Shown here: in pieces, positions 1 through 21,241 of the stretch
Layout: every line of letters starts with the position of its first letter
Numbering within the stretch: the stretch's first letter is position 1
Origin: Leucobacter chromiiresistens
GTDB taxonomy: Bacteria; Actinomycetota; Actinomycetes; Actinomycetales; Microbacteriaceae
Reading direction: 5' to 3'
Assembly: GCF_900102345.1 (NCBI RefSeq)
Contig: NZ_FNKB01000002.1
Coordinates: 327,653 to 391,652 of the forward strand
Length of the DNA: 64,000 nt
Program-made: the position numbers and the translations under genes
The notes under the pieces: model-generated
What the model was told of the DNA's origin: nothing
Database searches by the model: none
What the model saw: only the letters and a program-made list of their open reading frames with translations

Positions 1-690
1 CCGTGGCAGCTCCCCGCGACCGCGTGGGTGTGGAACACGGAGGCGGTGCCGAACGGCATCAAGACCCTCGACGACTTCCTGGATCCGAAGCTCAAGGGCA
101 AGGTCGTGGTGCTGAGCGAGATGCGCGACACCGTGGGGCTCATTCTGGCCGGGCTCGGGCACGACCCCGGCGGGCAGTGGGGCGATACCGAGTTCGACGC
201 CGCGATGGCGTGGCTCGACGACGCGCTGCAGAGCGGGCAGATCGGCAACGTGAAGGGCAACAGCTACACGCAGGATCTGATCACGGGGGATGCGCTCGCC
301 GCGATGGCGTGGTCGGGCGATGTGATCATGCTGAACGCCGAGAACGACAATCAGTGGACGCTGGAGATCCCGGAGTCGGGCGGCATGATCGCCGCCGACT
401 CGTTCACCGTGCCCAACGGCACGTCGCCCGAGGCGAAGGCGCGCGTCGAAGAGCTCATCGACTTCTACTACGACCCCGAGATCATGGCGCAGGTCGCCGA
501 CTACGTGACGTACGTCCCCCCGGTGAAGGGCACGCAGGAGGCGATGCGGCAGGTCAACCCGGAGAACGCCGACAACCCGCTGATCTTCCCGAGCGAGGAG
601 GACTGGGAGCACCTGCGTCCGTTCCGCACGCTCACGGCCGAGGAGGACAAGAAGTACTCCACCCAGTTCCAGAACGTGCTGGGGCTGTGA
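1..690 (+). CDS. Polyamine ABC transporter substrate-binding protein, C-terminal part (5' truncated by window)
   Basis: This is the C-terminal 229 codons of an extracellular solute-binding protein of the spermidine/putrescine (PotD-like) family. The frame is already open at base 1, so the signal peptide and first lobe lie outside the window. Visible family features are the second-lobe segment around DDFLDPKLKGKVVVLSE, the block GDVIMLNAENDNQWTLEIPE that lines the ligand cleft, and the C-terminal block DYVTYVPPVKGTQEAM. It would bind polyamine outside the membrane and hand it to the two permeases that follow. Its stop overlaps the GTG start of the ATPase gene by 4 bases, so it is the first visible gene of a four-gene operon. 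The exact polyamine cannot be read from this fragment. Confidence 0.88.
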   Translation, partial: PWQLPATAWVWNTEAVPNGIKTLDDFLDPKLKGKVVVLSEMRDTVGLILAGLGHDPGGQWGDTEFDAAMAWLDDALQSGQIGNVKGNSYTQDLITGDALAAMAWSGDVIMLNAENDNQWTLEIPESGGMIAADSFTVPNGTSPEAKARVEELIDFYYDPEIMAQVADYVTYVPPVKGTQEAMRQVNPENADNPLIFPSEEDWEHLRPFRTLTAEEDKKYSTQFQNVLGL

Positions 691-1874
691 GCGTGGCGGA
701 TCGGAGCGGGTTCGCGGAGGCGGGGGCCGACCTCCGGCTCGAGGGGATCCAGAAGCGCTTCCCGGGCTTCACCGCCATCGAGCATCTCGACCTGACCATT
801 CCCGCCGGCTCGTTCTTCGCGCTGCTCGGCCCGTCGGGGTGCGGCAAGACGACGACGCTGCGGCTCGTCGCCGGGTTGGAGGACGCGACCGCGGGCCGCA
901 TCCTCATCGGGGGCTCCGACGTGACGCAGCTGACCCCGCACCGCCGGCCGGTGAACACGGTGTTCCAGTCCTACGCCCTCTTCCCGCACATGTCGGTGCT
1001 CGAGAACGTCGCGTTCGGGCTGCGGCGGCGCCGCGTCTCCGACGCCGCCGCGAAGGCGCACGAGGCGCTGCGGCTGGTCGAGCTCGACCACGTGGCCGAT
1101 CGCAAGCCGCAGCAGCTGTCGGGGGGTCAGCAGCAGCGCGTCGCGCTGGCACGTGCGATCGTGAACCGCCCCGCGCTGCTGCTGCTCGACGAGCCCCTCG
1201 GTGCGCTCGACCTGAAGCTGCGCCGCCAGATGCAGCAGGAGCTGAAGCAGATCCAACAGGAGGTCGGACTCACCTTCCTGCACGTCACCCACGATCAGGA
1301 GGAGGCCATGACGATGGCCGACACCGTCGCGGTGATGCATCGGGGGCGGATCGAGCAGATGGGCGCGCCCGAGGATCTGTACGAGCTGCCGCGCACCGTG
1401 TTCGTCGCGAACTTCCTCGGGCAGTCGAATCTGTTCTCCGTGCAGGTCTCCGGCTCGACCGACCGGGTGCTCCGCACCGAGTTCCCGGGCGCGCGGCTGG
1501 CGGTTCCCCGTGATCGCAGCGAGCGGAGCAGCGGGCGGATCACGGTGGGCGTACGGCCCGAGAAGCTGACGCTCGCCCACGCGGAGCCCCCGCAGGACGC
1601 GCAGCTCAACGCCCTCGGCCCGGGCCGGGTGACCGACGTCTCCTTCATCGGCGTGAGCACCCAGTACACCGTTGCCGTGCCGGGGGCGGGCGACGTGCAG
1701 GTCTTCGCGCAGAACCTGCAGGCCGGGCCGACCGCGGCGCTCGGCGACGAGGTCTGGCTGAGCTGGCGCGTCGACCACACCTTCGGCCTGGCGGACGATC
1801 CGCTCGACACCGGCACCGTCGACTCCGAGCTCTCGACGCGGGCGATCGCGTCGCAGGCCGCGCTCGCCGAGTAG
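687..1874 (+). CDS. Polyamine-type ABC transporter ATP-binding protein (PotA-like)
   Basis: This 395-residue cytoplasmic ATPase powers the polyamine importer. Walker A (GPSGCGKTT) is at about residues 48-56, the ABC signature is LSGGQQQR, Walker B is LLLLDEPLGALD, and the H-loop sits in HVTHDQEEA. After about residue 260 there is a TOBE-type regulatory domain (GVRPEKLTL and onward), as in PotA and other CUT1-type ATPases. The GTG start at 687 overlaps the upstream stop; a second GTG at 693 is possible. Length and domain order are normal for the family. The next gene, a permease, begins 12 bases after its stop. Confidence 0.93.
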   Translation: MSVADRSGFAEAGADLRLEGIQKRFPGFTAIEHLDLTIPAGSFFALLGPSGCGKTTTLRLVAGLEDATAGRILIGGSDVTQLTPHRRPVNTVFQSYALFPHMSVLENVAFGLRRRRVSDAAAKAHEALRLVELDHVADRKPQQLSGGQQQRVALARAIVNRPALLLLDEPLGALDLKLRRQMQQELKQIQQEVGLTFLHVTHDQEEAMTMADTVAVMHRGRIEQMGAPEDLYELPRTVFVANFLGQSNLFSVQVSGSTDRVLRTEFPGARLAVPRDRSERSSGRITVGVRPEKLTLAHAEPPQDAQLNALGPGRVTDVSFIGVSTQYTVAVPGAGDVQVFAQNLQAGPTAALGDEVWLSWRVDHTFGLADDPLDTGTVDSELSTRAIASQAALAE

Positions 1875-1886
1875 GAGGAGACGATC

Positions 1887-2747
1887 ATGGCATTCACCGC
1901 GTTCTCGGCGAGCGCGAAGCAGCTGGATCAGACTCCGCGCAAGCGAGGGTGGGTGGCGCTCCTGCTGCTCGCCCCGGGCGTCGCGTACATGCTGCTGTTC
2001 TTCGTCGCTCCATTCGTGCAGCTCGCGCTGACCTCGCTGCAGGCCCCCGCCGACACGGGCGGCATCGGCCAGTACGTCGCGGCCGCGCAGTTCTCCAACT
2101 ACTGGGCGGCGATGCAGGAGTACTGGCCCCATCTCGCGAGGTCGTTCGCGTACGCGCTCACCGCGACGGTCATCGGGCTGCTGATCAGCTACCCGCTCGC
2201 GTACCTCATCGGCGTGAAGGTGCGGTCGCGGCCGATGCTGCAGGGGATCCTGCTGATCCTCGTCATCGCCCCCTTCTTCATCAGCTTCCTGCTGCGCACG
2301 CTCGCGTGGAAGGCGATCCTCCCGAGCGAACTGGTGGGCACGCACTTCTCCGTGATCTTCGGTCTCGTCTACAACTTCATCCCGTTCATGGTGCTGCCGA
2401 TGTTCGCGTCGCTGCAGGCGCTCGATCTGCGTCTCCTCGAGGCGGGAGCCGATCTGTACGCGTCTCCGCTCACCACCTTCCGCCGGATCACGCTGCCCCT
2501 CTCCATGCCGGGCATCGTCTCGGGCACGCTGCTCAGCTTCATCCCGATGTCGGGCGACTACGTGAACGCGTCGCGCGAGTTCCTGGGCGGCACGTCGACG
2601 ACCATGATCGGCAACGTCATCGAATCGAACTTCCTGCAGACGCAGAACTACCCGATGGCCGCGGCGCTCTCCATCATGCTCATGGTCGTCATCCTCGTGC
2701 TCGTCGCCACGTACGTGCGCAAGAGCGGGGTGGAGGACCTGCTGTGA
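1887..2747 (+). CDS. Polyamine-type ABC transporter permease (PotB-like)
   Basis: A 286-residue inner-membrane permease with about six predicted membrane helices, the first at residues 23-45 (VALLLLAPGVAYMLLFFVA). The EAA loop that docks onto the ATPase is visible as EAGADLYASPLTTFRRI, followed by a PLSMPGI turn. This is the PotB/PotH type of binding-protein-dependent permease. An AGGAGG-like ribosome site precedes the ATG. Its last codon overlaps the GTG start of the partner permease by 4 bases, so the two are translationally coupled. Confidence 0.92.
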   Translation: MAFTAFSASAKQLDQTPRKRGWVALLLLAPGVAYMLLFFVAPFVQLALTSLQAPADTGGIGQYVAAAQFSNYWAAMQEYWPHLARSFAYALTATVIGLLISYPLAYLIGVKVRSRPMLQGILLILVIAPFFISFLLRTLAWKAILPSELVGTHFSVIFGLVYNFIPFMVLPMFASLQALDLRLLEAGADLYASPLTTFRRITLPLSMPGIVSGTLLSFIPMSGDYVNASREFLGGTSTTMIGNVIESNFLQTQNYPMAAALSIMLMVVILVLVATYVRKSGVEDLL

Positions 2748-3544
2748 AGCGATTCAGTCTCGGAAAGGCGTTCGTCCCGGTCGTGAGCACGATCGTGCTC
2801 ATCTACCTGCTGCTGCCGATCCTGCACGTCATCGTGTTCTCCTTCAACGAGTCGGGGCGCAACAACATCCTCTGGCGGGGGTTCACGCTGCGCAACTGGG
2901 AGAACCCCTGCGGCGCTCCGCAGGTGTGCACCGCGTTCGGCAACAGCATCCTCGTCGGCGTCGTCGCCACGGTGATCGCGACCACGCTCGGCACGCTGAT
3001 CGCGATCGCGCTCGTGCGGTACCGCTTCCGGGCGAGATCGACCGTCAGCCTGCTGCTCTTCACGCCGATGGCGACGCCCGAGGTGGTGCTGGGCGCCGGT
3101 CTCGCCGCCCAGTTCCTGCTCGCGGGGGTGGAGAAGGGGATCGGCACCATCATCCTGGCGCACACAATGTTCTGCATCTCGTACGTGGTGGTGGCGGTGA
3201 AGGCGCGCGTCGCGAGCCTCGACCCCGCCATCGAGGAGGCGGGGCGCGATCTCTACGCCTCTCCGATGCAGGTCTTCTGGCGCATCACGCTGCCGATGCT
3301 CGCACCGGGCATCATCGGCGCGGCCCTGCTGAGCTTCGCCCTCTCCTTCGACGACTTCATCATCACGAACTTCAACTCGGGCACGGCGACGACGTTCCCG
3401 AAGTTCATCTACGTGTCGGCGCTGAAGGGCGTGCCGGCGCAGGCGAACGTGCTGGCGTCGATCGTGTTCGTCGCAGCGCTGCTGCTCGTGATCGTCGTGC
3501 AGATGGTGAACATCTCCCGTCGCAAGCGACTCGCTCGGGCGTAG
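2744..3544 (+). CDS. Polyamine-type ABC transporter permease (PotC-like)
   Basis: A 266-residue second permease subunit with about six hydrophobic segments and the EAA loop EEAGRDLYASPMQVFWRI. It resembles PotC/PotI and pairs with the upstream PotB-like subunit to form the channel. The start GTG lies inside the end of the upstream gene. The cytoplasmic tail ends in a basic run (SRRKRLARA), consistent with the inside-positive rule. It is the last gene of the ABC operon; the next gene has its own ribosome site 152 bases further on. Confidence 0.92.
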   Translation: MKRFSLGKAFVPVVSTIVLIYLLLPILHVIVFSFNESGRNNILWRGFTLRNWENPCGAPQVCTAFGNSILVGVVATVIATTLGTLIAIALVRYRFRARSTVSLLLFTPMATPEVVLGAGLAAQFLLAGVEKGIGTIILAHTMFCISYVVVAVKARVASLDPAIEEAGRDLYASPMQVFWRITLPMLAPGIIGAALLSFALSFDDFIITNFNSGTATTFPKFIYVSALKGVPAQANVLASIVFVAALLLVIVVQMVNISRRKRLARA

Positions 3545-3696
3545 CGGTGCGGGCCTGGCGTGCGCGGGGCGCGTCAGGCTTGCGCCGGGGGCCGCGCGGG
3601 TGCAAGATGTGTGCTTGGCGAATTCCTCGTCGCCGCACCAGGGCTGCCGAGCGGATTCATGTCGCGCGACGCAGCTGCGTTCTTGAAGGAGAGAAC

Positions 3697-5112
3697 ATGT
3701 CCGCTCTGTCTGCACCGGCGTCATCGAACGGTGCTCGTCTCAAGCGCAGCCTCGGGCTCTGGGCCATCGTGGGCCTCGGCCTCGGCTACATGACCCCCAC
3801 CGTGGTGTTCGACACGTTCGGCCTGGTGGCCCGAGACACGAACAACGTCGTGCCGCTCGCCTACACCGTGGCGCTGATCGTCATGATCTTCACGGCGATC
3901 AGCTACGGGAAGATGGCGGGGGCGATCCCCAGCGCCGGGTCGGCGTACACGTACGCGCGCGAATCGATGCATCCGAACGTCGGCTTCCTCGTGGGCTGGA
4001 CGGCGCTCATCGACTACATGCTGCTGCCGATGGTGAACTGCCTGATCCTGCGCAGCTACCTCGAGGCGTTCTTCCCCGGCGTCCCCGGAGCCGTGTGGGT
4101 CATCGTGTACGTGCTGTTCGTCACGACCGTCATCTACCTCACGATGCGCGGCACGTCGAACGTCAACATGCTGCTGCTCATCTTCTCGATCGTCGTGATG
4201 GCGATCTTCGTGCTCATGGTCATCCTGCAGCTCTCGGGCGGAGCCGGCGAGAACGGCGTCGTGACGATGCGGCCCTTCTTCCACGACGGCGTGGAGTTCG
4301 GCGCGGTGCTCGCCGGGGCGACGATCGTCTGCTTCTCGTTCATCGGCTTCGACGCGGTGACCATGTACGCGGAGGAGGCGAAGACGCCGAAGATCATGCC
4401 GAAGGCGATCCTGCTGACCGTGGTCATCGGCGGCGCGATCTTCCTCGTCGCCAGCTTCTTCACGCAGCAGCGGTTCCCCGATTGGAACGAGTTCGCCCCG
4501 GGCGGCGACATGCAGTACGTGGAGGACAGCACGCTGCCGATCATCGGCGATCTCGTCGGCGGCAAACTGCTCTCCGCGGTGCTCACCGCAGCCGGGTTCG
4601 CGGCGACCCTCGCGTCGGGGCTCGCGTCGCACGCCTCGGTGTCGCGCATGCTGCTCGTCATGGGCCGCAACAACGTGCTGCCGCAGAAGTTCTTCGGGTA
4701 CGTGAACCCGCGCACCCACACGCCGACCTTCAACATCGTGCTCACGGGAGCGATCTCCCTGCTCGCGATCGCCTTCACGCTCGAGATGATCGCGGCGTAC
4801 ATCAACTACGGTGCGCTGATCGCGTTCACCTTCGTCAACCTGTCGGTGATCGCGTGGTTCGCGATTCGCCAGGGGCGCAGGCGCACGCCGAAGGACATCT
4901 TCACGTACATCGTGATGCCGGTGCTCGGCACGCTGCTGACCGGACTGCTGTGGGTCAACCTCGACGGCCACGCGCTGCTCGGCGGACTCATCTGGAGCGC
5001 GCTCGGCTTCGTGTACCTGATCGTGATCACCCGCGGCTTCCGCCGCAAGGTGGCGTCGTTCGACGAGAGCCAGCCGGTGACGGGGTTCAACAAGGTGTCG
5101 GCGGGCGAGTAG
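3697..5112 (+). CDS. APC-family amino acid/polyamine permease (PuuP-like)
   Basis: A 471-residue secondary transporter of the APC superfamily with about twelve hydrophobic segments. The helix-1 block [24 protein letters not shown] and the helix-6 region [20 protein letters not shown] (read in pieces) are typical of the family's substrate and cation sites. The ATG is preceded by GAAGGAGAG at good spacing. Placement directly after a polyamine ABC operon suggests putrescine or a related amine as substrate, but that is inference from context. Family members also carry ordinary amino acids. Confidence 0.85.
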
Positions 5113-5138
5113 CCCCGTGCGCCGAGGCGCCCGCCGCG

Positions 5139-5783
5139 TCAGGCCCGGAGAGGCTTCTCCTCGGGCGGTGCGGCGGGCGTCGTCGCGCGGGCCCCGCGGT
5201 CGCGTCGGATCGCGCGGGGCGCGAAGAGCGGCAGCGTGATCGAGCAGAGCGGGCCGATGAGCGCGGCGAACACCACGGTGCCGATGCCGACGTTGCCGCC
5301 GAGGGCCCAGCCGATCAGCAGCACGGTCACCTCGACGGCGGTGCGGCCCGCCCAGATCGGCGTGCCGAAGCGCAGGTGGATGCCGGTCATCAGCCCGTCT
5401 CTCGGGCCCGGGCCGAGGTCGGCGCCGATGTAGACGCCGCTCGCGACGGCGAGCAGGAGCAGTCCGATCGTGAAGTAGGCCACGCGCAGCCACAGCGCGT
5501 CGGGGGTGGGCAGCAGCCAGAGCCCGAGCTCGATGCCCGGGCCGACGAGCAGGATATTGAGCAGCGTGCCGATGCCGGGCTTCTGGCGGAGCGGCCACCA
5601 GAGGAGCAGCACGAGCAGGCCGATGAGGTTGGTGAGCAGGCCGATGCCGAGGCCCGTCTGCAGCGAGAGGCCCTGTGCGAAGACCGTCCACGGGTCGACG
5701 CCGAGCGCGGCCTCGATCATGAACGCGTCGGCGACGCCGTAGAGCAGCAGGCCGGGGATGAGCTGGGCGAGTCGTCGGATCAC
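5139..5783 (-). CDS. YczE/YitT-type integral membrane protein
   Basis: A 214-residue polytopic membrane protein with five or six hydrophobic segments and the motif [19 protein letters not shown] that marks the YczE-like family. Its function is unknown. The GTG at 5783 was chosen because an upstream in-frame ATG at 5846 would run into the start codon of the divergent regulator. YczE-type genes are known to lie next to MocR-like regulators of the YczR group, and that pairing is seen here. The regulator across the 61-base gap is therefore its likely controller. Confidence 0.82.
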
Positions 5784-14750: not shown

Positions 14751-15500
14751 ATGCAGCACACCCGTACCCAGAAGTTCACGCGCCTCGCCGTCGGTGTCGG
14801 CGCCGGCGCCGTTCTCGCGCTGGCCGCGCCGCTCGCGGCCTCGGCCCACGTCACCGTGACGCCCGATCAGGTCGACGCCGGAGGCTGGTCGTACCTCACC
14901 TTCCGCGCGCCCACCGAGTCCGACACCGCGAGCACGACGAAGCTCGAGTTCCACCTGCCGAAGGACACGCCGTTCACCCACGTCTCGTACCAGCCGGTCG
15001 CGGGCTGGACGGCGGAGGTCTCGGAGGAGACGCTTCCCGAGCCCGTCGACGTGCTGGGCAACGAGGTCGCCGAGGCCCCGACGGAGGTCGTCTACACGGC
15101 GGAGGACGGCGGCATCGAGCCCGGGCAGGTGCAGATGTTCACGCTCTCGGTCGGCCCCGTCGCCGACACCGGCAGCATCGTCATCCCCGTCACGCAGACC
15201 TACAGCGACGGCACGGTGGTGGAGTGGGCGGCGACGCCCGAGCAACTGGAGGAGGACGACACGCTCGATCCCGCCCCCGTGCTCTGGGTGAACGACGCCC
15301 CGCCGGCCGATGACCACCACGGCGCGTCGGGCGGCCACGACGACGAGCAGGGCGCCGCGGCGGGAGCGGGGACCGCAGAGGCGGCCGGCTCGACGAACGG
15401 CGTCACGCTCGGCTTGAGCGTCGCGGCGCTCGTGATCGCCGCGGGCGGCGTGCTCCTCGGCGCCGTCGCGCTCGCGCGCTCGCGCAGGGCCGCAGAGTGA
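14751..15500 (+). CDS. YcnI-family copper-binding membrane protein (DUF1775)
   Basis: A 249-residue exported protein. A signal peptide covers about residues 1-32 and is cleaved after ASA, leaving a histidine as the first mature residue (HVTVTPDQ). That histidine is the copper(II) ligand of the YcnI domain, and the tryptophan W44 region (GGWSYLTFRAPTES) matches the second conserved site. The domain runs to about residue 180. A histidine/acid-rich linker (DDHHGASGGHDDEQ) and one C-terminal membrane helix follow. The stop overlaps the GTG of the CopC gene by four bases. Confidence 0.9.
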   Translation: MQHTRTQKFTRLAVGVGAGAVLALAAPLAASAHVTVTPDQVDAGGWSYLTFRAPTESDTASTTKLEFHLPKDTPFTHVSYQPVAGWTAEVSEETLPEPVDVLGNEVAEAPTEVVYTAEDGGIEPGQVQMFTLSVGPVADTGSIVIPVTQTYSDGTVVEWAATPEQLEEDDTLDPAPVLWVNDAPPADDHHGASGGHDDEQGAAAGAGTAEAAGSTNGVTLGLSVAALVIAAGGVLLGAVALARSRRAAE

Positions 15501-16171
15501 CCCAGCCGGGCAGCAGCAGCGGGCTCGCTCCGCGCCGCAGCACCGCGCCGCGCCGCAGCGCCGCGCCGCGCCGGGCGGTGCTCGTCGCTGCCGGCGCCCT
15601 CGTCGCTCTCGTCGGTCTGCCGGTAGCGGCGACGGCGGCGTCGGCGCACGACCAGCTCGTGAGCGCCGACCCGGTCACGGGCGCCACCGTCGAATCGCTC
15701 GACGAGATCACGCTGCAGTTCAACAACTCGCCCCTCGGGTTGGAGGGCAGCAACCTGGTGCGCGTGATCGGCCCGGACGGGAGCTACTACGAGACGGGCT
15801 GCCCGGCCGTATCGGGCCCCACCGTGTCGACCCCGCTGGCGCTCGGCCCCGCCGGCGATTACGAGGTGCAGTGGCGCGTCGTCTCGTCCGACGGCCACCC
15901 GATCGCGGAGAACTACACGTTCTCGTACGAGCCCGCCGGCGACGCCGAGGCGGGTGCGGGCTCCGCCGAGCCCGCCTGCGGCGAGGCCGAGCAGTCCGCC
16001 GCCGCCGGGGCGGCTGAGCAGACGGACGCGGCGCAGCCCGAGAGCCGCGAGGCGGAGACCGCGAGCCCGGTGAACGGGCTCTGGCTCGGCGTTGGTGTCG
16101 GCGGTCTGGCCGTCCTCGCGGTGGCGGTCGCCGTCTTCGTGATCCTGCGCCGGCCGCGCCCCCGCGAGTGA
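15497..16171 (+). CDS. CopC-domain copper resistance protein with membrane anchor
   Basis: A 224-residue protein with a basic, repeat-rich N-terminus (SxAPRRSxAPRR), a signal segment ending ASA, and a mature histidine start (HDQLVSADP) as in CopC. The beta-sandwich ends near SYEP, with SSDGHPI supplying the second copper-site histidine. An alanine/glutamate-rich linker and one C-terminal membrane helix (about residues 190-215) anchor it. It is coupled to the YcnI gene. YcnI plus CopC pairs are known copper-import or copper-buffering modules; no CopD domain is attached here. Confidence 0.9.
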   Translation: MTQPGSSSGLAPRRSTAPRRSAAPRRAVLVAAGALVALVGLPVAATAASAHDQLVSADPVTGATVESLDEITLQFNNSPLGLEGSNLVRVIGPDGSYYETGCPAVSGPTVSTPLALGPAGDYEVQWRVVSSDGHPIAENYTFSYEPAGDAEAGAGSAEPACGEAEQSAAAGAAEQTDAAQPESREAETASPVNGLWLGVGVGGLAVLAVAVAVFVILRRPRPRE

Positions 16172-16205: not shown

Positions 16206-17219
16206 CTACCCGCGCGACTCGTCGACGGAGAGCCATGCGGGGAAGGGGTCGGGCAGCATCCGCCAGCTGCCCGGCCCCGCCGCGAACTCCGCATCGGTGA
16301 GTGCGGCACCGTCGAGTGCGGCGGTGAGCGCCACCGGTTCGAGGTCGATGCCGATGAACGCGAGATCCTGCCCGATCGCGAGGAGCTCGGCCTCCGCGCT
16401 CACCGCGTCGCCGCCGATCGGCTCGAAGGAGATGACCCTGCCGATGTGGTCCCAGCTCGCGACGCGGCTCGGCCGGGTGGCGAGCCGGCAGAACCCGGCT
16501 GACCGCACGACGAAGCCGAACTCCCCGGGTTCGATGCGGCGATCGAGCACCGCCTGCAGGCGGCCCGGGTGCAGCGGCCGCTCGTGGGTGTAGCGCACAG
16601 CGGAGACGCGCGGGTCGCTCATGTGCGGGTCGTGCTCGCCGTTCAGCAGCGCCACCCATCCCGGCCCGTCCTGCTGCGGCGAGAGCGCCGGCGGCGCCGA
16701 GACGGGTTCGTGCCCCGCCTGGTGCAGGCTCAATCGCGAGCGCGGCGCGAGGTGGTTCGCGAGCGCCATGATTGTCGAGAGGTGCGCGGTCGGGAGCGAC
16801 TCCCAGTTCACGAAGACGATCTGCGTGGAGTACTCCATCTGGCTGACGAGCAGCTCGGCGCGCGCGACGTGCACGCCGCTGCTCCGCATCGGGAGGTAGT
16901 CGTCGCGCATCACGTCGGTGAGGAAGTGCACGGCATCGACCACGCAGACGAGGTGGATCAGCTGCACGCGGTCGGGCTCCGCGCCGAACGCGCCGATCGC
17001 CTCGGTCGCGCGCACGTCGGTCGGGAGCTCGATGACGGCGCGCCTCGACGCTCCGGCCCACGGGGCGAGCGCGGCGGCCTCGAGCAGCGGGTCGGGGTGG
17101 TGGGCTAGCCGAGCGGCGGTGATGAGCGCGGCGCCGGTGTGCGCGGCCCGGCGTGCGGCAAGCGCGCGGCGCTCCGGAGCGCACGCCCCCATCACTGCGG
17201 TGATCTCGATGGTGTGCAT
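16206..17219 (-). CDS. CobW-like protein without P-loop, divergent from the zinc-independent L36 gene (Mrf-like candidate)
   Basis: A 337-residue protein. The C-terminal 90 residues match the CobW C-terminal domain (LAFIGIDLEPVALTAALDG, then LTDAEFAAGP and LPDPFPAWL). The N-terminal part aligns with the G domain in outline (VCVVDAVHFL, LLVSQMEYSTQIVFVNW), but the P-loop GxxxGKT is replaced by AVMGACAPERR and no CxCC metal motif is seen. It therefore should not work as a GTPase metallochaperone. In mycobacteria a similar P-loop-less CobW-like protein is encoded beside zinc-repressed ribosomal protein genes and acts in ribosome hibernation (Mrf). Start ATG has AGAAAGGA upstream. A Zur-type palindrome overlaps its promoter. 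Confidence 0.72.
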   Translation of the reverse strand: MHTIEITAVMGACAPERRALAARRAAHTGAALITAARLAHHPDPLLEAAALAPWAGASRRAVIELPTDVRATEAIGAFGAEPDRVQLIHLVCVVDAVHFLTDVMRDDYLPMRSSGVHVARAELLVSQMEYSTQIVFVNWESLPTAHLSTIMALANHLAPRSRLSLHQAGHEPVSAPPALSPQQDGPGWVALLNGEHDPHMSDPRVSAVRYTHERPLHPGRLQAVLDRRIEPGEFGFVVRSAGFCRLATRPSRVASWDHIGRVISFEPIGGDAVSAEAELLAIGQDLAFIGIDLEPVALTAALDGAALTDAEFAAGPGSWRMLPDPFPAWLSVDESRG

Positions 17220-17261: not shown

Positions 17262-17283
17262 ACTATACTGATAATAATTATCA
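17262..17283. promoter_or_regulatory. Zur operator and overlapping divergent -10 boxes
   Basis: TGATAATAATTATCA at 17269-17283 is a perfect 15-base palindrome of the Zur-box type. On the plus strand TATACT (17264-17269) is the -10 for rpmJ. On the minus strand TATAGT (17267-17262) is the -10 for the CobW-like gene. Zinc-loaded Zur would block both. This is by far the most AT-rich spot in the neighbourhood. Confidence 0.8.
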
Positions 17284-17302
17284 ATAAGCCGAGAGGGGCA
17301 TT

Positions 17303-17425
17303 ATGAAGGTTCGCGCATCGCTCGCATCGCTGAAGCGACAGCCGGGGGCGCAGGTTGTGCGGCGCCGGGGTCGCGTCTACGTGATCAACAAGGCCAACCC
17401 CCGCTTCAAGGGACGCCAGGGGTAG
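17303..17425 (+). CDS. rpmJ: 50S ribosomal protein L36, zinc-independent (C-minus) paralogue
   Basis: A 40-residue basic protein ([20 protein letters not shown] and on to [12 protein letters not shown]). It matches the second type of L36 and lacks the cysteines that bind zinc in the usual form. Such copies replace the zinc-bearing L36 when zinc is scarce and free the metal. It starts 19 bases after a perfect Zur palindrome with GAGAGGGG as ribosome site. The gene is too short for many gene callers. It ends 16 bases before the convergent membrane protein gene. Confidence 0.93.
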
Positions 17426-17441
17426 CAGTTCCTCTGGACGA

Positions 17442-18911
17442 CTACCCGCACCAGTCGCTGAGCCCGCCGATCGCGGACCGCACGGTCGCGCCCGAGTCGA
17501 GGCGCACGTAGTTCGTCGTGGTCTGCGCGTACCCGGGGGCCGACGCGGCACCATCGGCAGCGCCCCCGTCCGAGATGGTCTCGACGGCCGCGAACTCGGC
17601 GTTCGGCGAGAGGCAGACGCGGCCGATGCGCGTGGACGCCGCGGCCGGTGCGAAGACGCTGCGCGTCTCGCCGTCGCGCTCCACGAGCACGGAGCCGCCG
17701 GCGACGAGGGAGCCGTCGCCGAGCGCCGAGCCCGCCGACCGGGGGTCGACGCCGTCGGCGACGGGCGGCGGCTCGCCCGGCGTCGAGGCCGCTCGCGCCA
17801 GCACGGCGTCGGGGGCGGCCGCGAGCACGGCGCGATCGTCGGCGCCGGCGGGCTGCACCATCGGGGTGCGCTCGGGCTCCGCATCGAGCGTTCCCGTGAC
17901 GATCCCGCCGAGGTCAACGAGCGACGGGCCCGCCGCATCCGCAACCGCGAGCGCGGTGGTGCCCGGGACGAAGCCGAGCAGGTCTCCCGAGAGACCTAGG
18001 TCGAAGACGCGCGGCTCGGGCACCGACTCCCAGCCGAAGAGCCGGCCGTCGGGGCTCTGCAGCACGAGCGAGGTCGTACCCGGCACGAAGCGCCAGTCCC
18101 GCACGGGTACGGGCGACCCATCGGCTCCGGTCACGATCGACACGATGGCGGTCGCGGGGTCGATCACGAGCAGCGTGCGATCGTACTCCGTGCCGTCGTC
18201 GCCGGCGCCCGAGGCGACGACCCCGATCACGCCGCTGCGCGCCTCGCTGCGGAGCTGCCCGAGGTGCGGCGCCGTCATCACGCGGAACGGGTCGGGATCG
18301 GCGAAGGTCGCAGCGGATCCGCCGTCCGTCGTCGCCGCATGGACGTCGAGCGCCGCCCGGCCCGTCTCGTCTCGCAGCACGGTCGCGAGCCCGTCGCCCG
18401 TGATCGCGTACTCTTCGATGCGGGGCGCCGCGAAGACCTCGCGGGTGGCAGCGGGATCCTGCAGACGGTGCTCCAGCAGTCGGTCGCCGCCCGGGGAGCG
18501 GCTCAGCGTGTAGGTCGCCGGGTCGGGTGTGCGCACCGGCGCCGAGACCACGTCGCTGCTTCCGGTCGCGGCTCCGCTCACCCGCGCCTCGATGCGGTAC
18601 TCGGCGCCGGTGTCGAGCATCTCGAGGAAGCGGACGGTGAGCGAGCTGCCGTCGGAGGAGACGTCGATCGGCGTCTCGGGCCGCACGCTCACGGCGGCGG
18701 CGTCGACGTCGGCGATCGGCTGGCTGAAGTGCAGTTGCACGCGCTGGTCGGTGCGCGAGACGAGCAGCGCCGTATCGGCGTCGACGCCCGCGAGGCGGGG
18801 CGGCTGCACGAGGTTGGCGACGGCGAGGCCCGCGGCGAGCAGGCCGAGGATCGCGAATACCGCGATGCGCGACACCAGGGCGCGCCGTGCAGCTCTCGGC
18901 TCAGTAGACAT
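17442..18911 (-). CDS. Membrane-anchored protein with Ig-like and propeller-like regions, third gene of the Zur-linked permease operon
   Basis: A 489-residue protein with one N-terminal membrane helix (about residues 14-33) and the rest outside the cell. Residues about 45-115 look like a bacterial Ig-like (SbsA-type) domain (RVQLHFSQPIADVDAAAV). The remainder has repeated beta segments ending in LVID-, VLQSPDGRLFG- and FVPGTTAL-like strands, suggestive of a beta-propeller. I do not recognise a named family. Its ATG overlaps the TIGR03943 gene by 11 bases, so it should share that gene's zinc-linked regulation. A role as an extracytoplasmic partner of the permease is inference only. Confidence 0.65.
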   Translation of the reverse strand: MSTEPRAARRALVSRIAVFAILGLLAAGLAVANLVQPPRLAGVDADTALLVSRTDQRVQLHFSQPIADVDAAAVSVRPETPIDVSSDGSSLTVRFLEMLDTGAEYRIEARVSGAATGSSDVVSAPVRTPDPATYTLSRSPGGDRLLEHRLQDPAATREVFAAPRIEEYAITGDGLATVLRDETGRAALDVHAATTDGGSAATFADPDPFRVMTAPHLGQLRSEARSGVIGVVASGAGDDGTEYDRTLLVIDPATAIVSIVTGADGSPVPVRDWRFVPGTTSLVLQSPDGRLFGWESVPEPRVFDLGLSGDLLGFVPGTTALAVADAAGPSLVDLGGIVTGTLDAEPERTPMVQPAGADDRAVLAAAPDAVLARAASTPGEPPPVADGVDPRSAGSALGDGSLVAGGSVLVERDGETRSVFAPAAASTRIGRVCLSPNAEFAAVETISDGGAADGAASAPGYAQTTTNYVRLDSGATVRSAIGGLSDWCG

Positions 18912-19647
18912 ACGGGTCTTCCGGTTCGTCGATGGCGGTGACGGCGAAGGGGCGCAGCACCACGGGCTGGTCGCTCGTCACGTCGGGGTTCGCGACGAAG
19001 ACGCCCTCGACCTCGACCCAGGATCCCTCGGGGTGCTCGCCCGCCCAGCCGGGCGCGAGCACCGGCACGCCGAGCGGTTGGGCGTCGACCGCGCAGCAGG
19101 AGACGACGAAGCGGGCGGCGGTGAAGAGATCTGGCTCCCCGCCGGGCGAGGGGAGCACGAACCCGATGAAGCGCGCCGTGCGGCCCTCGGCCTCCGCGCC
19201 GCCGCCCTGCCGCAGCAGCATCGCCCAGTCATGGGCGTCGCGGTCGGCATCCGCTCCCGCTGCGGGAGCGTCGCCCGCCGGGCCCGATCCCGCGTTCACC
19301 TGCCGCTGCTGAGCAGTCGCGACGGAGAGCGTGGTCGGCGGGGCCACGAGCAGGGCGGCGGCGGTCGCGCCGACGAGCAGCACCGCCCCGGCGAGGGAGA
19401 GCGCGCGCCTCAGCGGACGGGGTGCGCTCCCGTCGTGCGCATCCGACCGCTCAGCGCGGCGCAGGGCGGGAACCGCCGCGCACAGCGCGATCGCGGCGAT
19501 CGCGCAGAGCGACACGGTGAACCAGAAGTATCTCGGGTGCACGTACCAGCCGAGGCGCCCCGTCGCGGCGAGCCAGAGGATCGCGGCGATCCCGAGCCCG
19601 CTCAGGATGATCCCGCGCCAGTACCGGTCGAAGCGCTCACGCCACAA
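18901..19647 (-). CDS. TIGR03943-family putative permease subunit (YcgQ-like)
   Basis: A 248-residue protein. Two or three N-terminal membrane helices (about residues 15-30, 38-58 and 85-105) are followed by an extracytoplasmic domain. The C-terminal half contains FVVSCCAVDAQPLGVPV, whose paired cysteines are a family hallmark, and ends EGVFVANPDVTSDQPV. This family is always found beside a DUF318 permease, and together they are thought to form a membrane complex of unknown substrate. It overlaps the permease gene by 11 bases and the downstream gene by 11 bases. Confidence 0.85.
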   Translation of the reverse strand: MWRERFDRYWRGIILSGLGIAAILWLAATGRLGWYVHPRYFWFTVSLCAIAAIALCAAVPALRRAERSDAHDGSAPRPLRRALSLAGAVLLVGATAAALLVAPPTTLSVATAQQRQVNAGSGPAGDAPAAGADADRDAHDWAMLLRQGGGAEAEGRTARFIGFVLPSPGGEPDLFTAARFVVSCCAVDAQPLGVPVLAPGWAGEHPEGSWVEVEGVFVANPDVTSDQPVVLRPFAVTAIDEPEDPYVY

Positions 19648-20641
19648 GGTTCAGCCCCCATCCGATGACGAGGCAGCAGAGGGCCACGAGGCCGGTGAGC
19701 AGCGCGAGCGCGCGGGCGGTGAAGGTGGTGCGCAGCAGGGCGAGCATCTTGACGTCCATCATCGCCCCGAAGAGGAGGAAGGCCACGATGCTGCCCGGCA
19801 GGAAGGTCGCGCTGAGCGAGAGGATGAAGAAGGCGTCGACGCTCGAGCAGATCGAGATGATGAACGCGAGCAGCATGAGCGCGAGCACGGACCAGAGCGG
19901 ATGCGACCCGAGCGCGAGGAGAAGGTCGCGCGGCGCACCCACCTGGATCGCTCCGGCCAGCGCAGACCCGATCACGAGGGCGGGCATCAGGGCGCTGGTC
20001 TCCTCCGCGATTCCGACGAGGCTCCGCTGCATCCGGCTCTGACGCGCGTGCTCGTGACCGTGCGCGCACTGGGCGCGGAAGCCGTCGGCGAGCAGCGCGG
20101 ACTGCTGCGCGGAGCGGCTGAGGAGCCAGCCCGCGAGGTTCGCGATCACGAATCCGCCGATGATGCGCGCTGCGAGAATCCCATCGCTCCACCCGAACGC
20201 GTGGTACGTGGTGACGATGGTCACCGGGTTGAGCACCGGGGCGGCGAGCAGGAAGGTCGCGGCCTCGGAGACGGTGAAGCCCCGCAGCATGAGCCCGCGC
20301 GCGAGCGGAACGTTGCCGCACTCGCAGACGGGGAGGAGCACGCCGGTGACCGACAGCACCGCGCGCCGCAGCGCCGCGTTGCGGGGCAGCACGCGATCGA
20401 TGACCGACTGGGGCACCCAGACCTGCACGACCGTGGAGAGCAGGATGCCGAGGAAGACGAACGGCAGCGACTCGATGAAGACGCTCAGCGACAGCGCGAC
20501 GAAGTCGGCGAGCGCCTCGGGCAGTGCGAGCGCGTCGCTCGCGCCATCGGTGAGCGCCCGCACGCCGATCGCGGCGACGAGCGCCAGGGCGGCGGAGCCG
20601 GCGAGCACGAGCGCGCGCGAGCGGTGCACCACCGCCGCCAT
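19637..20641 (-). CDS. DUF318-family permease (YcgR/ArsP-like)
   Basis: A 334-residue membrane protein with about eight hydrophobic segments. The conserved block LLPVCECGNVPLARGLMLRG and the second block LNPVTIVTTYHAFG mark the DUF318/YraQ family, and a second-half SICSSVDAFFILSLS mirrors the first. The cysteines in CECGN could contact a soft metal or metalloid. It heads an operon with the TIGR03943 and propeller-like genes. A Zur-box-like site overlaps its promoter (20721-20740), so the complex may take part in zinc supply. The substrate is not known. Confidence 0.85.
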   Translation of the reverse strand: MAAVVHRSRALVLAGSAALALVAAIGVRALTDGASDALALPEALADFVALSLSVFIESLPFVFLGILLSTVVQVWVPQSVIDRVLPRNAALRRAVLSVTGVLLPVCECGNVPLARGLMLRGFTVSEAATFLLAAPVLNPVTIVTTYHAFGWSDGILAARIIGGFVIANLAGWLLSRSAQQSALLADGFRAQCAHGHEHARQSRMQRSLVGIAEETSALMPALVIGSALAGAIQVGAPRDLLLALGSHPLWSVLALMLLAFIISICSSVDAFFILSLSATFLPGSIVAFLLFGAMMDVKMLALLRTTFTARALALLTGLVALCCLVIGWGLNLVA

Positions 20642-20720
20642 ACCGCCTCCGATCCGAACCGGGTCGGAGCTCCGAGCCGATTCCGCATGGCGCGATCGGG
20701 GGAGGTTCGATCGGCGCCGC

Positions 20721-20740
20721 CGATAATCGTTCTCAGTATA
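20721..20740 (-). promoter_or_regulatory. Zur-box-like operator with -10 box ahead of the DUF318 operon
   Basis: Read on the minus strand, TATACTGAGAACGATTATCG matches the rpmJ promoter (17264-17283) at 16 of 20 positions, including the identical TATACTGA that joins the -10 to the box. The same -10/operator geometry at two loci is strong support for a shared repressor. The half sites are imperfect (one arm GAGAA, the other TTATC). Confidence 0.68.
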
Positions 20741-20833: not shown

Positions 20834-21241
20834 TCAGCGGGCGGGCGACGCGCTGCGGCACGCCGAGCAGATGCCGAAGACCTCGAGCGTGTGCGAATGC
20901 ACGTCGAACCCGTGCGTGCGCGCCACCGAGGTGAACCACGCCTCGTCGGGCGGCTCGATCTCGATGGTGGTGCCGCAGCTCGTGCAGACCATGTGGTGGT
21001 GATGCGTCTGCGGATCCTCGCAGGCGCGGTACAGCTGACCATCGGGGGTGGAGATCGCGTCGGCCTCCCGGTTCTCGACCAGCGCGTTCAGCTGACGGTA
21101 CACCGTCGCGATCCCGATCTTCGAGCCGTCGTCCGAGAGTCGCCGGTGCAGCTCCTGGGCCGAGATGAAGCCGGCCATCGATTCGAGTGCGGTGCGCACC
21201 GCCGCGCCCTGCGCGGTACGCCGGGTGCGAGTGGATGTCAC
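20834..21241 (-). CDS. zur: Fur-family transcriptional regulator, probable zinc uptake regulator Zur
   Basis: A 135-residue Fur-type repressor. The winged helix lies at about residues 28-60 (GIATVYRQLNALVE). The histidine run HHHH at 80-83 and CxxC pairs at C86/C89 and C125/C128 form the structural zinc site and sensory sites. Fur, Zur and Nur share this plan, so the name rests on context: two Zur-type boxes and a zinc-independent L36 gene lie within 4 kb. GTG at 21241 is the chosen start; TAGCAT lies about 35 bases upstream. It lies 192 bases upstream of the DUF318 operon on the same strand. Confidence 0.82.
   Translation of the reverse strand: MTSTRTRRTAQGAAVRTALESMAGFISAQELHRRLSDDGSKIGIATVYRQLNALVENREADAISTPDGQLYRACEDPQTHHHHMVCTSCGTTIEIEPPDEAWFTSVARTHGFDVHSHTLEVFGICSACRSASPAR

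Follow-up and report, generated by a model that had tools for sequence, protein, structure and literature searches.

A predicted Zur-controlled DUF318–TIGR03943–propeller operon in Leucobacter chromiiresistens and its possible role in zinc import

Zur-type boxes and genes of the locus

We analysed a stretch of 64,000 nucleotides from Leucobacter chromiiresistens (contig NZ_FNKB01000002.1, positions 327,653 to 391,652; hereafter the window), in which the genes for a DUF318 permease, a TIGR03943 protein and a propeller-like protein appear to form an operon controlled by the zinc regulator Zur. A COG0523-like gene (minus strand) is followed along the window by box 1 and rpmJ (plus strand), and then by the convergent propeller, TIGR03943 and DUF318 genes (17442-20641, minus strand), box 2 and zur (minus strand). 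The two similar 20-mers to which an earlier note on this DNA had drawn attention lie where it located them, TATACTGATAATAATTATCA at 17264-17283 on the plus strand and TATACTGAGAACGATTATCG at 20740-20721 on the minus strand. They are identical at 16 of 20 bases, and each holds a predicted 7-1-7 Zur-type box abutting a -10-like element.

The actinobacterial Zur box is described as a 7-1-7 palindrome, tGaNNatSatNNtCa (PMC5472717). Box 1 (17269-17283) is a perfect 7-1-7 palindrome, TGATAATAATTATCA, and includes the last base of TATACT (17264-17269, plus strand), the putative -10 element of rpmJ. The bases ACTATA at 17262-17267 read TATAGT on the minus strand and offer a candidate -10 element for the COG0523-like gene. 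The box is present as the earlier note had claimed for the rpmJ promoter, but it stands between two divergent genes and can serve both. Box 2, TGAGAACGATTATCG (20721-20735, minus strand), lies 80 bases upstream of the DUF318 start and likewise takes in the last base of a TATACT (20735-20740, minus strand), the probable -10 element of the operon, which judged from sequence alone is an operator position in a predicted promoter. The window contains two sites within three mismatches of TGATAATNATTATCA, against 0.11 expected, and 1 of 100 shuffled versions gave at least two such sites. Box 1 matches the published core TGANAANNNTTNTCA without a mismatch and box 2 with one.

The DUF318 gene (19637-20641, minus strand) encodes a predicted permease of family PF03773 (ArsP_1; 7.2e-56, 189.9 bits against a gathering cut-off of 32.3). 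Residues C106, E107, C108, C192, C265, D269 and D296 are invariant in 40 of 40 aligned rows. The second gene (18901-19647, minus strand) belongs to the TIGR03943 equivalog family (DUF1980; 131.1 bits, cut-off 88.8). In its structure model three long helices at the N-terminus are followed by a domain with an OB fold, probably on the outer side of the membrane, that carries a Cys-Cys-x2-Asp motif. Like DUF318, the protein has invariant Cys and Asp residues in the alignment; in a set of 31 rows for this comparison the first Cys is His in 5. The model also bears a weak Foldseek likeness (rank 10) to PA4066 (4hsp), described as an OB-fold protein from Pseudomonas aeruginosa whose zinc operon is linked to Zur (PMC8561739).

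The third gene (17442-18911, minus strand) matched no known Pfam or NCBIfam family at E <=0.1. Its model (predicted local distance difference test, pLDDT, 90.5) comprises an N-terminal helix (5-35), a beta-sandwich (about 40-127) and a beta-propeller (about 128-488), and the gene stands beside the DUF318-TIGR03943 pair in 93 of 96 loci; this synteny and the confident propeller fold support the suggestion, made earlier, that the propeller-like protein is a third component. Apart from two Cys columns (each 62/78), no column of its alignment reaches 60% His or Cys. The three open reading frames overlap by 11 bp each, provided that the TTG at 19647 is the start codon of TIGR03943.

Upstream of DUF318 and co-directional with it lies a Fur-family gene (20834-21241, minus strand; FUR 5.5e-22), which the earlier note had credited with Zur-like cysteines. 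Its product proves closest to solved Zur proteins: the best PDB matches are MtFurB/Zur (2o03, 2.2e-31) and Streptomyces coelicolor Zur (3mwm, 1.7e-30), after which the best remaining Fur-family entry falls to 6.5e-17. Its motifs YRAC, HHHH, CTSC and CSAC, which comprise two CxxC pairs and the Cys and His of the regulatory site, align with the Cys/His positions of both. Which of these residues belong to which zinc site is our presumption. The assignment draws in addition on the description of Zur in PMC6103462. The protein scored 33.3 of the 167 bits required by the Escherichia coli-type Zur model NF008646, and the Fur and PerR models scored above NF008646, also below cut-off. The genome contains one other Fur-family match. 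The gene rpmJ (17303-17425, plus strand) encodes a type B ribosomal protein L36 (PF00444 7.3e-19; NF002021 78.9 bits, cut-off 70), which we take to be the zinc-independent type.

Predicted Zur regulon and conservation of the box

We scanned the whole 3.21 Mb genome for boxes. At up to three mismatches TGATAATNATTATCA occurred at 19 places (3 for a backward-pattern control), the rpmJ box being the only one without a mismatch. As a test that did not depend on the window we chose TGANAANNNTTNTCA, the core of the consensus given for actinobacteria (PMC5472717), which at up to one mismatch was found at 8 places (control 1), both window sites included. Four of the eight are the promoters of rpmJ/COG0523, aztABCD, znuACB and the DUF318 operon, and the remaining sites are situated either 3' of an rpmB-rpmG pair or in front of genes with no evident zinc role. 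The box-like site at the rpmB-rpmG pair (C1:580614, L305) is 3' of the two genes, outside their promoter.

The aztABCD locus with its Zur box (L002/L141) encodes AztA (234.7 bits), AztB (348.3), AztC (380.6) and AztD (458), all above cut-off; within C1:1021500-1029500 (positions 575-5744), aztA is divergent from aztB, which is followed by an AztD-like gene, aztC and the full aztD, the second, AztD-like propeller gene scoring 90.1 of 400 bits. The znuA-znuC-znuB-znuB locus (L008/L142) has the promoter TATAGTGATACTCGTTCTCA, and Pfam identifies ZnuA and two ABC-3 permeases. A TATA-TGA joint is common to three of the four zinc-gene promoters, those of rpmJ, DUF318 and znuA. Both the box type and the kinds of target resemble the Zur regulon of Streptomyces coelicolor and Mycobacterium, actinobacterial Zur being reported to control ribosomal paralogs, COG0523 genes and znuABC (PMC6103462, PMC7174638, PMC4298942). 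Unlike those targets, the DUF318/TIGR03943/propeller operon, here one of the four promoters found, is not named in the available text of the regulon descriptions, which cover Corynebacterium diphtheriae, S. coelicolor, Mycobacterium avium paratuberculosis and Mycobacterium smegmatis. A literature search that extended to neither subscription papers nor RegPrecise turned up no paper with the names TIGR03943, COG0701 or COG3689, and an earlier mention elsewhere is possible; five names of the TIGR03943 family do occur, in two papers.

Among seven named Leucobacter loci, the DUF318 20-mer TATACTGAGAACGATTATCG is identical at 20 of 20 bases, between diverged flanks, in the closest three, those of Leucobacter sp. 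L43 (L143), L. chromiiresistens (L144) and L. musarum (L145). In the same three the rpmJ/COG0523 box is retained with small changes, and the CTATA that could serve as a -10 element on either strand is kept as in the window. The named protein nearest to the window's TIGR03943 is that of L. chromiiresistens NS354 (93% identity).

This conservation bears directly on whether box 2 could have arisen by chance in AT-rich sequence, with the operon outside Zur control. Box 2 differs from the perfect palindrome at three positions, a distance at which the genome has many chance matches, and it scores 20.0 bits, less than the 27.8 bits of the rpmJ box; but its 20-mer is unchanged in three relatives whose flanks have diverged, it sits at a predicted -10 element, and it is among only eight places matching the published core, so that we consider a chance match very improbable.

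Zinc-gene neighbourhoods across actinomycetes

Within the family to which the window belongs, 91 of the 199 genomes sampled encode TIGR03943, and within the class 92 of 296 do so (89 above cut-off). We compared all 95 family loci outside the genome itself, 80 named loci (a set that overlaps with the family loci), 40 loci from other actinomycetes and 40 recA control loci from the same family, searching within about 5 kb for eight marker proteins (ZnuA, ZnuB, Zur, L36 type B, L28, S14, COG0523 and AztD; tblastn, E <=1e-5). Zinc markers occurred near TIGR03943 in 23/95 family, 17/80 named and 15/40 other actinomycete loci, as against 0/40 recA loci, and a box of at least 16 bits anywhere in the locus in 23, 20, 19 and 3 loci respectively. 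The families of neighbouring genes were verified for a few loci.

Several of these neighbourhoods join the trio to known zinc genes. Six loci (L076, L103, L105, L108, L134 and L135) carry znuA-znuC-znuB-zur-DUF318-TIGR03943-propeller in one direction, in some followed by rpmB and rpsN, with a box before znuA that scores 21-25 bits in five and 15.5 bits in L076. In L139 and L140 the DUF318 gene shares the bases ATGA with an overlapping znuB-type permease gene (checked with Pfam for L140), a 24.9-bit box separates divergent znuA and DUF318 genes in L050, and L092 and L117 have rpmJ and COG0523 beside the operon. A quick tree was made of 94 DUF318 proteins, that of the window and those of 93 of the 95 loci. 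On it the zinc-neighbour label requires at least 16 changes, 9 of them forced by starred branches, against a mean of 21.5 for shuffled labels; inheritance accounts for part of the pattern, and regain or loss for the rest.

The DUF318 operon is, in our view, a well-supported predicted Zur target in this Leucobacter, because of the box at its -10 element, the footprint kept in the nearest relatives, the recovery of four zinc promoters by an independent consensus, the adjoining Zur-type regulator, and the recurrent znu, zur, rpmB, rpsN, rpmJ or COG0523 neighbours. We give a probability of just under 0.6 to the reading that the operon belongs to the Zur regulon and that its products form a membrane system importing zinc.

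A number of observations weigh against this reading. Loci with the zinc-neighbour label also group together on the tree, so that they are not independent, and some marker loci depend on one weak neighbour (a znuB-type gene in L058, an L28 gene in L138). No zinc marker was detected in 72 of the 95 family loci. In 27 of the 95, for example L053 and L078, the trio has rne- or obg-type neighbours (25 have both), standing among rne and rplU-rpmA-obg genes, and none of these 27 is a zinc-marker locus; directly before DUF318 they have no 16-bit box, apart from that of L091. In four of the seven named Leucobacter the sequence directly upstream of DUF318 offers no strong box, the best candidates there reaching 13.3 (L148), 12.6 (L150), 15.2 (L153) and 1.2 bits (L207, which does have a box of 23.3 bits beside znu-type genes at a distance of about 0.7 kb). 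Another genome of the genus with TIGR03943 (G014, L109) has a best candidate of 13.3 bits, and two further ones lack the family. In the wider sets of loci, a box of at least 16 bits within 400 bases upstream of the DUF318 match was present in 6/94 family, 7/80 named and 5/39 other actinomycete testable loci, the L091 box among the six being probably a chance match. Direct Zur control is thus patchy across relatives. The earlier note had named a lack of conservation in relatives as what would refute its link to zinc starvation; this does not hold for the three nearest Leucobacter, and beyond the lineages with zinc-gene neighbours a zinc role of the trio is at most possible.

We take DUF318 and TIGR03943 to correspond to the products of ycgR and ycgQ in Bacillus subtilis and of scfA and scfB in group A Streptococcus, which are, as here, adjacent genes for a permease and a second membrane protein; the TIGR03943 model does match B. 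subtilis. In the published account, ycgR/ycgQ are placed under extracytoplasmic function (ECF) sigma factors, a further point against zinc import, and the available text describes for neither pair a link to zinc or Zur or a third, propeller gene (PMC5584981). The trio might have an ancestral role outside zinc metabolism, be it in envelope stress or with a sulfur compound or a different metal, and Zur control would then have been borrowed in some lineages. The marker-free and rne-obg family loci, the four Leucobacter loci without a strong box, and the published association of the homologs in B. subtilis and streptococci with ECF sigma factors, with acid and with fitness in vivo (PMC5584981) would all fit such a history; but the zinc linkage recurs in distant actinomycetes (15/40), and the many label changes on the DUF318 tree fit a lasting functional tie, and we regard borrowed control as rather unlikely.

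Possible function of the trio

The main competing function is export or redistribution, since Cu/Zn export has been proposed for SO_0444, a relative in PF03773: it is reported to be required for growth with ZnSO4 or CuCl2 (PMC3219624), which also counts against import. A Zur-controlled operon of this kind could expel zinc, or a metal that competes with it (Co, Cd, Cu), or load extracytoplasmic zinc proteins in scarcity. The nearest NCBIfam models of the window's DUF318 are indeed those of efflux families, although at 75.4 of 300 bits (the SO_0444 Cu/Zn efflux transporter model) and 68.1 of 325 bits, so that this member of the same permease family falls far below the equivalog cut-offs of both SO_0444 and SaoE. 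The operon would, moreover, be made at low zinc, and elsewhere the trio is joined with importer genes in one operon or through an ATGA overlap. We regard export or redistribution as rather unlikely, and import of zinc as the likeliest function of the trio.

In the reading that we favour, Zn-Zur would, under zinc sufficiency, sit on the 15-bp palindrome abutting the -10 element and block transcription. As zinc falls, Zur would leave and the operon would be expressed along with znuACB, aztABCD, the COG0523-like gene and rpmJ type B. The extracytoplasmic OB domain of TIGR03943 could then take up zinc at its Cys-Cys-x2-Asp site and hand it to the DUF318 permease, whose Cys-Glu-Cys motif, C192, C265, D269 and D296 may line the zinc route, while the membrane-anchored propeller might dock on or cap the assembly from outside as a scaffold with no conserved zinc site of its own. 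More tentatively, and as something possible rather than probable, the DUF318-TIGR03943 pair with a lineage-specific anchored propeller might represent a new class of zinc supply, neither ATP-binding cassette (ABC), ZIP nor P-type, in which many actinomycetes under zinc starvation pass zinc from capture by the OB domain to a Cys-lined permease.

An analogous arrangement is that of AztABCD, which has an extracytoplasmic propeller in a zinc locus, as in the window trio, and in this genome a Zur box. AztD is among the Foldseek matches of the window propeller (ranks 16 and 24), and its His ligands have been named (PMC6689063). We considered the third gene as an AztD and rejected this: it had no NF038015 match at E <=0.1 (the genome's own AztD scores 458 bits), an hhalign probability of 0.7% and no conserved His. 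It differs from AztD in its extra N-terminal helix and beta-sandwich, and its partner is the DUF318 permease, that of AztD an ABC system.

TIGR03943 is a common family lacking an assigned function, for which the link to zinc starvation supplies a concrete hypothesis. If true, it would give zinc acquisition a further component next to Znu and Azt, and the trio may be an overlooked part of the actinobacterial response to zinc shortage. It would also provide a clue to ycgRQ and scfAB, two pairs for which the accounts available so far report fitness and stress phenotypes only.

The COG0523-like gene divergent from rpmJ (16206-17219, minus strand) matches PF07683 (CobW_C) only and the ZigA model at 99.8 bits (cut-off 600). 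No P-loop was seen in the N-terminus of the window protein, its counterparts in L143-L145, L117, L092 and L175 likewise lack one, and the protein weakly resembles the mycobacterial ribosome-hibernation recruiter MRF (68.7 of 375 bits). Beyond it, DUF1775 and CopC copper-type genes (14751-16171) occupy the same place in the window and in L143-L145.

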